Below, piece after piece: positions 13,758 through 20,381 of a DNA stretch of 20,575 nt. Position numbers and translations under genes: made by a program. The notes below the pieces were generated by a model that saw only the letters and a list, made by a program, of their open reading frames with translations, did not search any database and was not told the origin of the DNA. The DNA is taken from positions 1 through 20,575 of the IMG/VR virus record IMGVR_UViG_3300017730_000129; one strand, 5' to 3'. The first letter of the stretch is position 1. The number at the start of each line of letters is the position of its first letter. The DNA is from a virus.

Positions 13758-15574
13758 TTTATCGTTTTTATTCTATTTTTAAAGTTATCTGGAAAGTATT
13801 CTAATTTATTTATCAGATTTCCAAAGCATGCATCCAAGATATAAGTCACTGCCCAATCTTCTTTGTTTCTAATACTTCTACCTGCACCTTGTTGGATTGT
13901 TATTCCAGTTTTCCAATCATACCAACCTGGTGATTTCTTTATTTTAGCACTTGTTAATGGATCTCCTAATGAAGGATACGGTACTTTAAAAAATATTTGA
14001 AACCTACAAGTGTCATCTTTAAAATCTAAACCTTCAAGAATTGATGGACCCATAATAACTCCATTCATTGTATTCTTAAATTTAACTAATGCTTCTTTCT
14101 TTTCACTACTCTTATTGTACTCAATGATCCTCTTAATGTGTGAGGTGTGTCCTTTAATATATTGACTAAATTCATAACTTCCTGTGTGAATAAGCCCTCT
14201 GTGTCCTTTATGTTTCTCTAAAATTTGATCTAACATTTTGATAGCTTCAGGTAAACTTTTATGCTTATGTTGCATTGACATCTTCCATCGGTCAACAAAT
14301 ACAATTGGAGACTTTTCATATGTAAATCCATTAGATAGTCTAATAAATTTAGCATTGTCTATTCCCATTACTTTCATATAAGTTTTAGGTTCTCCAATAG
14401 TCGCTGACATAAATACTTTAAAGCCTGCTCTTTTGTGTAAATGCTTTTTAATTAGATGCGCCTCACTCAAACACATTAATTTAATTTCACCATCATGTAA
14501 GTTTTGATTAAAAACCATAGACTCAATGCCCGTAGTTTCTATAATTTCTAAATAGTCTTCAATTTTACAATGAGTATCTTTAAGTCCGTCAAGCTGTGAA
14601 AATGCCCGTTGCCATTTCTTTGGAAGACTTGAATTGACATCAATTCCAAACTTTTGTTTTGCTCGCTGATTTAATTCTGCTCTACCTTTTAAAATGCTCC
14701 ATAAAAATCCTTTTACTTTCGCTAGTTTAATTAGAAGTTTCTCCTTATTTTCTTCTATTAGAATTTCATCCATTAGATCTCCTATAAAACTTTTAGAAAC
14801 TGCTGGGACTCTAACTCCTTGTTGCATCATGAAGTCAATCAAAGTCCCTGTTTTAAAAAGGGAAAATTTTTTCAAAGAAGGAGAAAAATGTTGTTGAACA
14901 ATTTCATCTACCTTGTGCGCCTCATCAAAGAAAACAAAGTCCCGTTTCTTAAAAGGAAAAAAATTATCATATGATTCTAAAATTTCATCATATCGTTCCG
15001 AGGACACATCATTAATAAGGGTATTATGTCCTTCTTTCTCCATTTGTCTTACAGCCATTCTATAATTAACATAATTTTGCTGTATCAACCAGAAACTATA
15101 ATTAACAAGGGTAACTGGCGCATCGATCGCCTTTTTTCGAGTGTTTAAATAGTCGCACATTCTGGCGCATTGTAACCTTTCGGCTTGGCCATAAGAGTAG
15201 CCTCTCATCTTACATTCACCTAGGCTAAACGGCAGGCCGTTCACTTCACAGTTGTAGTTGTCAATGCCTTGGATGGAGGGCCATCCTGTATTATACTGTG
15301 AGAAGTCATATTCGTATTGTTCTTGTAGTGTTTTATCCGATGTTACTATGTAGCCTTGATTGCCTAGTTCCTTGAGAATGTATGAGGACCACATTGCAAT
15401 AATTGATTTACCAGTACCTGTAGGGGCATCTATAACAATTGTAGACTCAGGGTCTTCTATATATTGATTAACGATTGCTGTGATTGTTTCACGTTGGTAT
15501 TGTCTAAACTTAAAGTCTTTACCAAATTTATTTTCCTGTATGGCTTGTTCTATTATCTTATTTACTTGATCCAT
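13754..15574 (-). CDS. XPD/DinG-type iron-sulfur superfamily 2 DNA helicase
   Basis: The 606-residue protein carries the main motifs of the XPD/DinG family. These are a Q-type motif (FRQYQRETI), Walker A APTGTGKS (50-57), and four cysteines between motifs I and II (C109, C121, C136, C140) spaced like the family's 4Fe-4S ligands. They continue with DEAH (217-220), an MSATIGEP motif III-like segment and QQGAGRSIR (561-569) as motif VI. These enzymes unwind DNA 5' to 3' with ATP and act in repair, recombination and removal of blocked structures. Its start overlaps the dCMP deaminase gene by 17 bases. The part coding the cysteine region is much richer in G+C than its surroundings (49 of 100 bases in 15161-15260 by my count), hinting at mosaic origin. 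T4 itself uses other helicases (Dda, UvsW). Confidence 0.88.
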   Translation of the reverse strand: MDQVNKIIEQAIQENKFGKDFKFRQYQRETITAIVNQYIEDPESTIVIDAPTGTGKSIIAMWSSYILKELGNQGYIVTSDKTLQEQYEYDFSQYNTGWPSIQGIDNYNCEVNGLPFSLGECKMRGYSYGQAERLQCARMCDYLNTRKKAIDAPVTLVNYSFWLIQQNYVNYRMAVRQMEKEGHNTLINDVSSERYDEILESYDNFFPFKKRDFVFFDEAHKVDEIVQQHFSPSLKKFSLFKTGTLIDFMMQQGVRVPAVSKSFIGDLMDEILIEENKEKLLIKLAKVKGFLWSILKGRAELNQRAKQKFGIDVNSSLPKKWQRAFSQLDGLKDTHCKIEDYLEIIETTGIESMVFNQNLHDGEIKLMCLSEAHLIKKHLHKRAGFKVFMSATIGEPKTYMKVMGIDNAKFIRLSNGFTYEKSPIVFVDRWKMSMQHKHKSLPEAIKMLDQILEKHKGHRGLIHTGSYEFSQYIKGHTSHIKRIIEYNKSSEKKEALVKFKNTMNGVIMGPSILEGLDFKDDTCRFQIFFKVPYPSLGDPLTSAKIKKSPGWYDWKTGITIQQGAGRSIRNKEDWAVTYILDACFGNLINKLEYFPDNFKNRIKTIK

Positions 15575-15992
15575 TTATTTCTGTTGGTTCTATTCTTATT
15601 ACTTCTATATTGGCTTGTTCTAATAGTTCTATACCTGACATATCTCTATAAGTTTCTGAATAATATACTCGTGATATACCAGATTGAATAATTATTTTTG
15701 AACAACTAAAACAGGGGGCTGTTGTAGTGTAGAGTTCCGCCCCGCCGCTCCCCATCGTAGATTGGGCAACTTTAGTAATAGCATTAGATTCTGCATGTAG
15801 GACTTCAGGTTTAGTAGTGTCATTTAATTCACAAGTGTTATCAAATCCTCTTGGCGTTCCATTATAGCCAAAACTTATTACTTGTTCATTTTTAACAAGA
15901 ATACATCCAACTTGCCTTCTTTCAGCATAGCTTAATTTAGCAAATTGATAAGCAACTTGCATATATGTATATTCTATTGGTGTTTTTGGCAT
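15558..15992 (-). CDS. cd: Deoxycytidylate (dCMP) deaminase
   Basis: This 144-residue protein is a zinc-dependent dCMP deaminase, converting dCMP to dUMP for thymidylate synthesis. The active-site signature is complete: LHAESNAI with H66, A67 and the catalytic E68, then APCFSCSKIII with C94 and C97 as the other zinc ligands. The segment QVGCILVKNEQVISFGYNGT before it is the typical core strand pair, and length agrees with the family. In T4-like phages the enzyme balances nucleotide supply with phage DNA composition. The gene is the first after the terminator near 16010-16044, and its end overlaps the helicase start, so it probably heads a unit with the helicase and the small genes behind it. 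The short leader AAACAGAC lies directly before its ATG. Confidence 0.93.
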   Translation of the reverse strand: MPKTPIEYTYMQVAYQFAKLSYAERRQVGCILVKNEQVISFGYNGTPRGFDNTCELNDTTKPEVLHAESNAITKVAQSTMGSGGAELYTTTAPCFSCSKIIIQSGISRVYYSETYRDMSGIELLEQANIEVIRIEPTEINGSSK

Positions 15993-16266: not shown

Positions 16267-16845
16267 TTATTGTTCTGATCTAAAGTGACCTTTGCTATAA
16301 GACCATGGTTCTTTATCCCATAAATTAAAGGCCATTGCTCTTCTAGTACCTGTTAACACTTTATCAACTCTATGTGGTACTTGACCAGCTTGAAACATGA
16401 TTAATCTATTTGCTATAGGGACTACAGTATCAGATGGCTTATCAGTTCCTTCTGTAAATACGTTTAAGGCTCCTCCTGTAAATTCAGAACCCGCAGGATA
16501 ATATACACATCCAAGAGTTGGAAACATTCTATTTCCAGTTTCTAATCTGTATTGTACATCATCATCATAATGCATTACTAAATAGTCTTTAAATCTACCA
16601 TTTGGATCAGCTTCTTGAACTCCGGTCCAATATTCAAAACCATCTGGTGTATTATACTTTTTACCTAATGGATAATTATATCTCCAAACATATTCAATAA
16701 TTCTTTGCTTAATCGATTTAGCTTCTGAATTCCACCAACCTTTCCAGTAATAATATACACCAGGATCTTTAAAGAACATGTCATCGTTAGCTATATCTTC
16801 TAATAGCTTTTCATCTTTTATAAAATCATCAAATACTGCAATCAT
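16267..16845 (-). CDS. 2-oxoglutarate/Fe(II)-dependent dioxygenase
   Basis: This 192-residue protein has the double-stranded beta-helix signature of 2OG-Fe(II) oxygenases. The iron triad is H92-x-D94 in LVMHYDDDVQYR and the distal H158 in GQVPHRVDKV. The 2-oxoglutarate-binding Arg is R168 or R169 in TGTRRAMAFNLW. Between them PTLGCVYYPAGSEFTGGALN matches the prolyl-hydroxylase-like subfamily (P4Hc) often found in marine T4-like phages. Such enzymes hydroxylate protein side chains or nucleic-acid bases. The target cannot be told from sequence. Candidates by position are the Thr/Glu-rich protein encoded just upstream, and phage DNA. The preceding gene ends 6 bases away, so the two are likely cotranscribed. 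Confidence 0.9.
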   Translation of the reverse strand: MIAVFDDFIKDEKLLEDIANDDMFFKDPGVYYYWKGWWNSEAKSIKQRIIEYVWRYNYPLGKKYNTPDGFEYWTGVQEADPNGRFKDYLVMHYDDDVQYRLETGNRMFPTLGCVYYPAGSEFTGGALNVFTEGTDKPSDTVVPIANRLIMFQAGQVPHRVDKVLTGTRRAMAFNLWDKEPWSYSKGHFRSEQ

Positions 16846-16851
16846 TTTAAA

Positions 16852-17556
16852 TTAAGCTTCAGTTTTAGTGATAATTGAATCTGCTGGTCCTTGAACAGGT
16901 TCGTTCTCAGATTCAGGTCTTTCATTTTCAGAAGTACCATAAGCTTCAATCATTTCGTTACACTTCTTTACATAAGCTTCTTTAATTTCGTTACAAGCAG
17001 CTTCAAACTGTTCTGTTGAACATGTACCTTCAGAAGTAGTATACATTTCTTTAACAGCATTGCAGTGACCTTCAGCAACTAAATTTGCAGTTTCAGTCAT
17101 ATATGTACCTTTAGTATGTTCTTCATAATCATCATTTTCATATGCTTTAGCTTCATCTTGAAGTAAAGTACATGCTTTTTCATACATTTCAGCAACTGTT
17201 GTAGTATGTACTTCTTCTTCCTCTTCATTTACTTGAACAGATTCAGCAGCTGAGTGAGAGTGTGTGTGAACTGACTCTTCTTTTGTTTCTTCAGCATCTG
17301 TAGTTTCTTCTTCTGTTTCTTCAGAATCAGTAGTTTCTGTATCTGTTGTAGTTTCTTCAGAATCAGTAGTTTCTGTATCTGTTGTAGTTTCTTCAGAATC
17401 AGTAGTTTCTGTATCTGTAGTTTCTGTATCTGTTGTAGTTTCAGCGTCCGGTGCTGTATCTACAGTAGCAGTATCTACGGTTGGAGCATCAACAGTTGCA
17501 GTATCAGTACCTCTAGTTGAAAACTCCTCGAATGATAAAATTTTATTTGTTTCCAT
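16852..17556 (-). CDS. Acidic Thr/Glu/Asp-repeat protein with helical C-terminal domain
   Basis: The 234-residue product has three parts. A short N-terminal motif (MSequence METNKILSFEEFSTRG) is followed by about 80 residues built from tandem TTDSEETTTDTE 12-mers and shorter TTDTE units (residues about 36-92). A His-containing linker (ESVHTHSHSAAE, residues 95-106) with a run of Glu leads to a helical domain (about 119-206) with cysteines at 129, 165, 179, 188 and 199. The product is extremely acidic. No family is recognised. It may be an internal head or prohead-core protein, which in T4-like phages are often acidic, or a decoration or secreted protein; the Thr-rich repeats would be a natural target for the adjacent dioxygenase or the glycosyltransferase. 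These are inferences from composition and neighbourhood. Confidence 0.72.
   Translation of the reverse strand: METNKILSFEEFSTRGTDTATVDAPTVDTATVDTAPDAETTTDTETTDTETTDSEETTTDTETTDSEETTTDTETTDSEETEEETTDAEETKEESVHTHSHSAAESVQVNEEEEEVHTTTVAEMYEKACTLLQDEAKAYENDDYEEHTKGTYMTETANLVAEGHCNAVKEMYTTSEGTCSTEQFEAACNEIKEAYVKKCNEMIEAYGTSENERPESENEPVQGPADSIITKTEA
17316..17438 (-). repeat. In-frame 36-bp tandem repeat inside the acidic protein gene
   Basis: Two identical 36-bp units (17316-17351 and 17352-17387) are followed by a 33-bp copy lacking one codon (17388-17420) and an 18-bp half copy (17421-17438). The unit encodes 12 residues, TTDSEETTTDTE in register. The DNA identity, not just the protein identity, points to recent duplication by slippage or recombination, so copy number is likely to vary between isolates. 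Confidence 0.9.
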
Positions 17557-17577
17557 TATAATGTATTTTTTTATTAT

Positions 17578-17590
17578 TAATTATATATCA
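17578..17590 (-). promoter_or_regulatory. Putative late-type promoter before the acidic repeat gene
   Basis: On the minus strand this reads TGATATATAATTA, differing from the exact late-box copies at one of the aligned positions (TATAATTA for TATAAATA). It lies 22-34 bases before the ATG of the acidic protein, in the 54-base spacer after uvdE. The upstream side is part of a 7-bp inverted repeat (17585-17603 region, TATCATA/TATGATA). Confidence 0.4.
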
Positions 17591-17610
17591 TAATAATATG
17601 ATAATCTTTT

Positions 17611-18549
17611 TCAAACAACTGGAGTTGCCTCAAGTATTGATTCTATTTGATTTTTTTTTAAATAATCAATTAATGCTAATTCTTTAGCTTTAGCTTCCAA
17701 TTCTACATCTACATCATAACCAAATGTTGGAATAGTTTCATAAATATAGTCAGCATGTGCTCTATTGATAACTGAACTATCTTCATGTAATTTTTTACAT
17801 GAACTATAATGTGTACATTGTTTAGTTCCTTCTGGCCATGTTGATCTTGCAAGTTCAAATGCTTCTTTGACTGGCATTGGATCTTCATAACACCAATGGT
17901 GGTGATAGTCAAACATAACTGGACAACCAACCACATCTGAAACACCTTCTTTCAAATCTTTTACACTGTATTGTGCTTTCTTATCGTCATTTTCTACAAC
18001 AAGTCTAGTTCTTACACTTTCATCCAATGTTAAGAACCTTTCACAGAATCTTTGCATACTTTCTTTCTTGCCACCCATTGTTGTATTGACATGTATATTG
18101 ATAGGTGCGTTAGGATTTCTTGGGAGACCCATGAGGTCCATGATTTCGCCATGTTGATTTAATTCATGTATCGCAGAAGATACTACCCTAGGAGTCATGC
18201 TAGCCAATACGCAAAAATGACCTGGGTGGAATGTAAGTCTTTGACCACCTTCCATGGCCATATGTCCAGCACCTTGTAGCAATACTTTAATTCTATTATA
18301 TGTAGGAAGGTCTTTTAAATCGTATTCAGTAGACCATGGAAACATGCTTGAAGACATTCGATAAAGTTTAATGCCATTTTCATTGTTCCATTTAATAATC
18401 TTACACATGTCACTTACATTTAAGAGTGCAAGTTGACCTGCATATTCAATACCTCTTTCAGTAAAGGTTTTTTTAATCATTTTTCTGCCGACTTTAATAT
18501 CTTGTTCAGCAAGTGTTTTGTTGATACAACAATATCCGTAATTTGTCAT
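17611..18549 (-). CDS. uvdE: UV-damage endonuclease, UvdE/UvsE family
   Basis: This 312-residue protein is a UvdE-type endonuclease, a TIM-barrel, metal-dependent enzyme that nicks DNA 5' to UV photoproducts and starts an alternative excision repair. The family segments are in order: YCCIN near the N-terminus, GIKLYRMSSSMFPWSTEYDL (60-79), RLTFHPGHFCVLAS with H108 (104-117), IHELNQHGEIMDLMGLP, INIHVN, LVVENDDKKAQYSVKDL with E186 and D188/D189, and VMFDYHHHWCYEDP with D214 and H216-218. H265 (RAHADYI) is another likely ligand. Length matches the family. T4 uses DenV for the same task, so this may be a functional replacement. G+C content appears higher than in the neighbours (26 of 60 bases at 18121-18180), suggesting later acquisition. 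Confidence 0.93.
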   Translation of the reverse strand: MTNYGYCCINKTLAEQDIKVGRKMIKKTFTERGIEYAGQLALLNVSDMCKIIKWNNENGIKLYRMSSSMFPWSTEYDLKDLPTYNRIKVLLQGAGHMAMEGGQRLTFHPGHFCVLASMTPRVVSSAIHELNQHGEIMDLMGLPRNPNAPINIHVNTTMGGKKESMQRFCERFLTLDESVRTRLVVENDDKKAQYSVKDLKEGVSDVVGCPVMFDYHHHWCYEDPMPVKEAFELARSTWPEGTKQCTHYSSCKKLHEDSSVINRAHADYIYETIPTFGYDVDVELEAKAKELALIDYLKKNQIESILEATPVV

Positions 18550-19562: not shown

Positions 19563-20381
19563 TTATATGTTTATTTTTTCTAATATCTGTTTAGGTACTT
19601 CATGTATTCGTTTATTTAAAATAGGCGTAAAGTACCACTTCTTAACTGCAGGCAATTCTTTAATTCTATAATGCCAATTATAATTATTATCTTTACTCCA
19701 TTCTAATTTAGAAGCATCTAAATGTTTTTTAATAGTGGACTGATAATCAATCTTGTGTAAATGTAATAAAAATAAGTTATTATCAATAACTTCATATTTT
19801 TCAAATTCATCGTTTTCCACTTCCTGGCTACTCATTTTATCGTGTTTAAATGCGTGAAAACCAATACACCAATTTAAGTCAATCTTTGAAATTACCGTTT
19901 TATTATAATTATTTTTTTCTTGACACCAATATTCAAATTGATCACACCACTTCTTAGAATAATCAAAAGGTTCTTGTAATTCAGGAATGTGAATAATTTC
20001 ATAACCACTACATGTTACATAATCTTTATCTAAATTTTCTAAATATTTTTTAAGCCCTCCTTCCTTATTATAAACAATAAATTCATCAACATCTAGAGGA
20101 ATAATATAATCATAACCTTTTTTTCTTAAAAGCTTTATATTTTTTTTAATTTCATCAAATACACCTACTGGATTCCAAATATCTACATTAGAATTAATAA
20201 CCATCGCTTTACCATGAATATATTCTTTTAAATATTCTTTATCAGAATCAAAATTTAAAATCCAAATATCGTTCCCGCCATTAGGTAAATGTCGACTATA
20301 ATATTCTAAAAATTTAGAAATATACTTAGTTTCATTTTTAATAGGACATATAACCGCCGATTTATTCATATTTTTTTTCAT
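19563..20381 (-). CDS. Glycosyltransferase, GT-A fold, family 2/92-like
   Basis: This 272-residue protein looks like a GT-A glycosyltransferase of the Glyco_tranf_2_4/GT92 type. It opens with VICPIKNETKYISKFLEYY (about residues 10-28; the nucleotide-sugar-binding 'hK(N/D)E..Y..E(F)L.Y' pattern), then IWILNFDSDKEYLKEYIHG, and has the DxD metal motif in YIIPLDVDEFIVY (D97, D99, E100). Further on, KHLDASKLEW and HYRIKEL segments match the acceptor half. No membrane anchor is seen, so it should be soluble. In T4-like phages glycosyltransferases modify DNA bases, virion proteins or host surface sugars; which applies here is not visible. Two in-frame Met codons (residues 1 and 5) are possible starts. 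A perfect TATAAATA box precedes it. Confidence 0.82.
   Translation of the reverse strand: MKKNMNKSAVICPIKNETKYISKFLEYYSRHLPNGGNDIWILNFDSDKEYLKEYIHGKAMVINSNVDIWNPVGVFDEIKKNIKLLRKKGYDYIIPLDVDEFIVYNKEGGLKKYLENLDKDYVTCSGYEIIHIPELQEPFDYSKKWCDQFEYWCQEKNNYNKTVISKIDLNWCIGFHAFKHDKMSSQEVENDEFEKYEVIDNNLFLLHLHKIDYQSTIKKHLDASKLEWSKDNNYNWHYRIKELPAVKKWYFTPILNKRIHEVPKQILEKINI

Follow-up and report, generated by a model that had tools for sequence, protein, structure and literature searches.

What does an extremely acidic, repeat-bearing protein do for a large marine phage that encodes it next to a dioxygenase? The window (the whole 20,575-base IMG/VR virus record analyzed here) encodes on its minus strand, at 16852..17556, a 234-amino-acid protein that starts with ATG and, by composition count, contains 66 Asp/Glu residues, 12 Lys/Arg residues (net charge -54) and 50 threonines. 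A sequence-only reading of this DNA had singled out the hyperacidic ORF, which is borne out by the ORF listing and by a family of orthologs, and had raised the idea of a Thr-rich virion or secreted protein modified by enzymes encoded nearby. Our analysis points elsewhere: with a probability of roughly 0.65, this hyperacidic protein is targeted to the capsid of a T4-type jumbo phage, either as part of the prohead core or as an internal head protein.

The baseplate and helicase proteins of the window are related to those of jumbo phages of Tenacibaculum, Flavobacterium, Chryseobacterium, Prevotella and 'Sphingomonas' (phage PAU), the nearest by these proteins being the uncultured 462-kb phage LR756500; gene lists throughout are longest-ORF calls rather than annotation. 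The target protein itself matched no Pfam family, no PHROG beyond a weak hit to phrog_9216 (E = 0.01), none of 50,697 phage records by tblastn, and nothing in IMG/VR when searched directly. Orthologs were likewise not found in 8 records carrying baseplate and dioxygenase relatives or in six named jumbo phages. Three contigs that overlap the baseplate genes of the window (98-100% and 89% identical) extended the analysis to an adjoining region of this phage lineage, and a protein encoded there, here called METQ-type (METQIQSFATFSETR..., L014 2629-3612), led to 35 loci of its own. Four of the 19 searched records reached through METQ-type relatives contained a target ortholog: G012-G014 (207 amino acids, mutually identical) and G016 (197 amino acids). 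Alignments of these first orthologs recovered 12 and at least 32 loci, at least 39 of them distinct; two divergent orthologs used as queries gave no match in named phages. We examined 35 ortholog loci, leaving out L143-L146, which repeat the L142 protein (L143 and L144 repeat L142; L145 and L146 are the same records as G014 and G012). Pfam and PHROG matches of individual orthologs were set aside, as they look like acidic or low-complexity composition. Judged from sequence, this appears to be a new family of hyperacidic proteins of the capsid targeting sequence (CTS) type, with no convincing Pfam or PHROG score.

Every complete-start ortholog has a tag-like N-terminus (save one split gene), followed by a hyperacidic middle part and, at the C-terminus, a conserved helical domain. 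In the window, all on the minus strand, these correspond to residues 1-16 (METNKILSFEEFSTRG; 17509..17556), to a Thr/Asp/Glu region at residues 17-118 (17203..17508) that is predicted to be disordered from alignment, AlphaFold2 and composition, and to a three-helix domain at residues 121-208 (16933..17196). The tail that follows (residues 206-234; 16855..16941) is near-invariant in the closest relatives and lost in distant ones, and the HTHSHS linker (residues 97-102; 17251..17268) is present only in the window and those closest relatives, where it reads HTHTHS. AlphaFold2, supplied with nine orthologs, predicted a confident three-helix bundle over residues ~121-208 (pLDDT near 90) and a short helix at residues 9-15, with low confidence between the two; the three-helix region was weak in a single-sequence model. 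The prediction thus agrees with the helical C-terminal domain proposed earlier, whose description as Cys-containing does not carry over to the family, since cysteines are not conserved (1 to 9 per complete ortholog). Foldseek searches of PDB and BFVD gave no match to the model at E ≤ 0.001, and a sequence profile gave at most weak low-complexity or designed-helix matches in PDB.

The claim that the 36-bp repeats are identical and young also held. A repeat search placed an array of 2.9 copies with 100% matches at 17315..17418 (minus strand; unit TDTETTDSEETT), and a direct search found the unit twice without mismatch and once more with 2 mismatches (shuffles, 0/100); the exact unit was not found in IMG/VR. 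Length variation, anticipated from the repeats, proved to be natural among relatives. Across 1,797 aligned bases, L150 and L151, two contigs, differ solely by an in-frame indel of 21 bp within the acidic tract, and complete-start orthologs span 152 to 406 amino acids (the 88-amino-acid L180 ORF, part of the split gene, is left out of this range). The repeat arrays of the orthologs differ in unit. In the window and its close relatives the acidic middle is built of TD/TE repeats; L150/L151 have poly-Asp there, L152 has PVEEPEVEEE repeats, L181 has EEVEDT repeats, and L172 has a 63-bp repeat. An EGNAFG..GETYKVEES module, recognized by eye in the acidic part of L172-L174, is also present in METQ-type proteins. 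By these sequences, what is conserved in the middle is charge and not sequence. Threonine richness and the His linker are confined to the closest relatives; because more distant orthologs use poly-Asp, Glu-Pro-Val or Glu-Ser repeats in its place, threonine is not a conserved feature, and the retention of charge while sequence varies argues against a Thr-specific modification.

Gene neighbourhoods bear on the same question. The dioxygenase ORF (16267..16845, minus strand; 2OG-FeII_Oxy_3, E = 8e-8) does begin 6 bases beyond the target stop codon, as had been pointed out. For the glycosyltransferase said to lie in the same region, an ORF is indeed present ~2 kb from the target gene (19563-20381), but its Pfam assignment, Glyco_tranf_2_4, scores 26 bits against a cut-off of 27.5. 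A homolog of the window dioxygenase was found within 3.6 kb of the target in none of the 35 other ortholog loci, and neither it nor the glycosyltransferase had a match among the ORFs of G014, a 205-kb relative in which the ortholog occupies the same gene order as in the window and is directly followed by a 60-amino-acid gene. PF13640 enzymes occurred in 4 of 12 searched records, the window included, and in the other three they lay at least 16 kb from the target. Conversely, five records with a close dioxygenase relative had no detectable target, and none of eight records reached through dioxygenase or baseplate relatives paired the two genes; in L006, L008 and L009 the dioxygenase relatives adjoin, by eye, recA-like and replication genes, with no target. 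The partner that is conserved is a dCMP deaminase (15558..15992, minus strand, in the window), located no more than three genes downstream of the target in 34 of 35 loci, the remaining contig ending before that point. With the dioxygenase beside the target in 0 of 35 other loci and in G014 not at all, the two genes most likely came together in the window through a chance insertion.

A surface or secreted protein hydroxylated or glycosylated by its neighbours is therefore highly improbable. The 6-base spacing speaks for it, as does a dioxygenase relative in L005 that sits beside glycosyltransferases and a collagen-like fibre gene; against it stand the lack of an adjacent dioxygenase in the other loci, the lack of a match to either enzyme in G014, the unconserved threonines, and an N-terminus that, read directly, has no hydrophobic signal for secretion. 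The virion part of the earlier proposal survives in altered form: the protein is probably a virion component, but one predicted to lie inside the head.

Three side observations concern these neighbourhoods. At L005:430-5287, where the target is absent, two oxygenase-like ORFs, glycosyltransferase-like ORFs and an 823-amino-acid collagen-like repeat protein lie side by side (the second oxygenase and the glycosyltransferases being judged by eye), which makes this cluster a better candidate than the window for hydroxylation of a phage repeat protein. The target also adjoins a gene for a UV-damage endonuclease, UvdE (window 16852-18549), much as T4 ipII/ipIII adjoin denV (T4 64939-66415), a parallel that is probably coincidence. 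Finally, in close relatives a 213-amino-acid ORF with a signal-peptide-like start lies between UvdE and the target (L142:4250-4891); it is absent from the window and from L148 and matches no family.

At the N-terminus of the target, ILSFEEF (17521-17541, minus strand) is the sole run of seven invariant residues among nine aligned orthologs that are 28-78% identical to the window protein. The pattern [FY]E[EQD][FY] was present within the first 22 residues of 28 of 29 distinct complete-start orthologs, compared to a background of 0 to 4% of ORFs in five phages; 21 of the 29 do not contain the ILSFEEF search pattern, so that selection by it does not bear on them, and 20 of these have the core. 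The exception, L180, is the split gene, and its upstream ORF starts MAKLKTFEEFLS. Divergent orthologs show the full form of the tag: KLKSFEQFLAE (L155), KLKSFEQFVAE and IKRFEDFVSE. In T4 (NC_000866), the internal proteins IPII and IPIII both start with MKTYQEFIAEA, and IPI with MKTFKEFTSTTTPVSTITEA. That the T4 CTS can bring foreign proteins into heads has been proven by experiment. According to a review of T4 head assembly (PMC9026906), the CTS acts in targeting mainly through residues 4 and 7 (Y4, F7), whereas processing depends on residues 8 and 10, the protease gp21 cutting after L/I-x-E. F9 and F12 of the target have the same aromatic spacing as Y4 and F7 and are invariant across the nine-ortholog alignment. 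The window tag has no adjacent [ILV]-x-E processing site, reading FSTRG there; such a site directly follows the tag in 6 of 29 orthologs.

A profile trained solely on 21 LR756500 tags gave, as uncorrected p values, 4.9e-5 (the test floor) for T4 IPII and IPIII, which lie outside the training set, and 0.14 for IPI. The window tag was weakly significant (p = 0.024), ranking 3 of 29 in the window and 20 of 256 in G014. Orthologs scored as low as 4.9e-5 (L167), 6e-4 (L171) and 2.5e-3 (L155 and L172), and many were not significant (p up to 0.31); these weak scores trace to the second half of the tag, where many orthologs lack [ILV]-x-E. The METQ tag was not recognized by this profile, and an FS.TR tag subclass seemingly shared by the target and METQ-type proteins is a lead at most, as ~1% of shuffles reach its score.

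The same wording recurs on other proteins of these phages. Defined by the regular expression [FYL]..F[ILVM].E starting within the first 16 residues, the tag was carried by 23 of 664 ORFs in LR756500 (3.7 expected if uniform) and by 11 of 256 in G014 (2.2 expected). In LR756500 it falls nearly always at residue 7 of a start such as MKYIKEYEEFLNEA, and the proteins that bear it are unrelated; the tags of G014 include MKTYEEFINEA, close to the MKTYQEFIAEA of T4. Counted in successive 16-residue bins, the motif occurred 23, 0, 2, 4, 0, 2, 0 and 3 times in LR756500, 11, 4, 1, 0, 1, 3, 1 and 3 times in G014, and 25, 1, 0, 0, 1, 2, 1 and 5 times in 377 distinct ortholog-neighbour genes, some of which are entered twice through the near-identical contigs L166/L176. 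These counts mark the tag as a feature of N-termini. No excess of this wording was seen in PAU (1/285 ORFs), pT24 (0/288) or MaF61 (1/183). PAU has tags of another wording, MKTL..LYEAKLNEA, that cluster around its portal, protease and capsid genes, and one bearer, gp270, was annotated by its depositors as an internal capsid protein. At PAU 106051-113735 (within L060), about ten short ORFs near these genes have common MKTL..LYE starts, possibly a lineage-specific wording of the capsid tag.

Tag statistics alone do not prove a packaging meaning. The N-terminal helix could serve some other docking in a cytoplasmic acidic protein, for example a DNA-mimic or histone-like inhibitor, and the extreme acidity of all orthologs, their conserved three-helix domain, and a gene position always by nucleotide-metabolism and helicase genes rather than head genes would suit such a role. 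We regard this as unlikely, given that the same N-terminal wording marks unrelated proteins, the gp67/gp68 position of G014 and the internal proteins of T4, and that the free variation of the acidic tracts, in length as in order, is not what a structured DNA mimic would show.

Although the 20.6-kb window fragment contains no prohead protease or capsid gene, the head genes of its relative G014 could be compared directly with those of T4. Their order is Portal_T4 (PF07230, 1e-70), a tagged 114-amino-acid ORF, Peptidase_S77 (PF03420, 5e-11) and Gp23 (PF07068, 8e-44), matching the T4 order 20-67-68-21-22-23; the tagged ORF (MKIKTFNQFITEA), which has an acidic tail, thus sits between the portal and the S77 prohead protease. 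At its N-terminus the G014 capsid protein carries LINEA and GINEA, motifs that end like the FINE-type tags, a similarity consistent with one protease serving both the capsid and the tags, as far as the motifs indicate.

A more specific fate within capsid targeting, overlapping in confidence with the main reading of which it is a sub-case, is that the target is a core scaffold equivalent to T4 gp67: chopped and mostly lost at maturation, and thus absent from virions or present there as fragments. T4 gp67 is the closest protein in charge (-31 per 100 residues, compared to -23 for the target), gp21 cuts core proteins into fragments (PMC9026906), and the target contains five [LIV]-x-E sites, at residues 111, 123, 162, 170 and 193. 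This equivalence is nonetheless doubtful: the target gene adjoins dCMP deaminase and lies outside the portal-protease position of gp67, a slot held in G014 by another tagged acidic ORF, and the gp67 profile match (11.9 bits, bias 16.1) reflects composition, the helical domain yielding none.

Our preferred reading thus remains a capsid-targeted prohead-core or internal head protein; that it is encapsidated, what its acidic region does and what becomes of it after packaging we infer as follows. The ILSFEEF N-terminus would act as a CTS, docking the protein into the core of the prohead while the shell is still open. The acidic repeats would form a disordered, charge-conserved filler or spacer whose sequence and length drift by repeat slippage, and the three-helix domain would be the conserved working part, which would either serve in core packing or, once ejected along with the DNA, act on a host target. 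Because the window copy has no [ILV]-x-E after the aromatic pair, we predict that it is targeted without cleavage next to the tag. We lean slightly toward a structural core role with possible ejection, since divergent phages retain the family at the same place. The gene's location outside the head cluster, the weak window tag (p = 0.024), the non-significant scores of many orthologs, the missing I-x-E site and the contrast between this very acidic protein and the slightly basic T4 internal proteins count against the capsid reading, for which a search also turned up no virion proteomics of any of these phages.

A wider proposal, to which we give about even odds, is that the jumbo phages of this Bacteroidota-type lineage have a T4-like capsid tag in a wording of their own, with which they load a dozen or more unrelated proteins per genome into the head for delivery to the host; at the same even odds, the target would be the lineage's hyperacidic member, its charge rather than its sequence conserved, and the load would include tRNA nucleotidyltransferase-like and GNAT-like proteins. 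Two adjoining G014 ORFs with tag-like starts (L133:10045-11561) are of these kinds: one, MRRLKLYEEF..., matches a tRNA nucleotidyltransferase/poly(A) polymerase (PF01743, 1e-32) and the other, MRNIKSYDEF..., a GNAT acetyltransferase (PF13508, 1e-7). From their sequences both are candidate packaged enzymes. Separately, an 866-amino-acid protein at L014:10108-12708 has a tag at its start and two internal ones (residues 447 and 537), and resembles fused cargo units with possible protease sites between them. The METQ-type family (L014:2629-3612, L084-L118) ranges from 145 to 487 amino acids among full-start members, and in its distant members the start is replaced by MSITREQLKNIVKE-like helices.

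The T4 CTS and the N-terminal packaging signal of P1 DarB are already known; what would be new is the large, tag-defined set of candidate cargo in Bacteroidota-type jumbo phages. We found no description of the tag in such phages in open-licence PMC articles, and the search for virion proteomics yielded just SDS-PAGE without protein identification, for MA9V-1 (PMC10537231). For an acidic repeat protein that had no assigned place, the analysis offers a concrete prediction, that it is carried inside the head, and it makes the tag a readable signal for listing packaged, perhaps injected proteins of abundant, mostly uncultured huge phages.

Among known systems, the T4 internal proteins are one of the closest parallels. 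IPI, IPII and IPIII have, like the target, an N-terminal aromatic-x-x-aromatic tag of the same wording and, like the tagged proteins of these phages, diverse bodies behind a common tag, and T4 shares with G014 its type of portal, S77 protease and Gp23 capsid. IPI, moreover, resembles the target in having a Ser/Thr-rich stretch after its FKEF core, without I-x-E. The T4 proteins differ in being slightly basic, whereas the target is hyperacidic, has repeats and lacks an adjacent processing site, and its helical domain has no sequence relation to them. T4 gp67, for which a prohead-core role parallels the one proposed here, has a comparable density of negative charge, but another gene position and domain order and no homology beyond composition. 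The gp53 and gp54 proteins of SPN3US have identical N-termini that have been compared with the T4 CTSs (PMC5694885). In phage P1, the DarB protein is, as we propose for the target, sent into the head by an N-terminal signal (PMC9024508), although that signal is longer than the tag described here and different in sequence.
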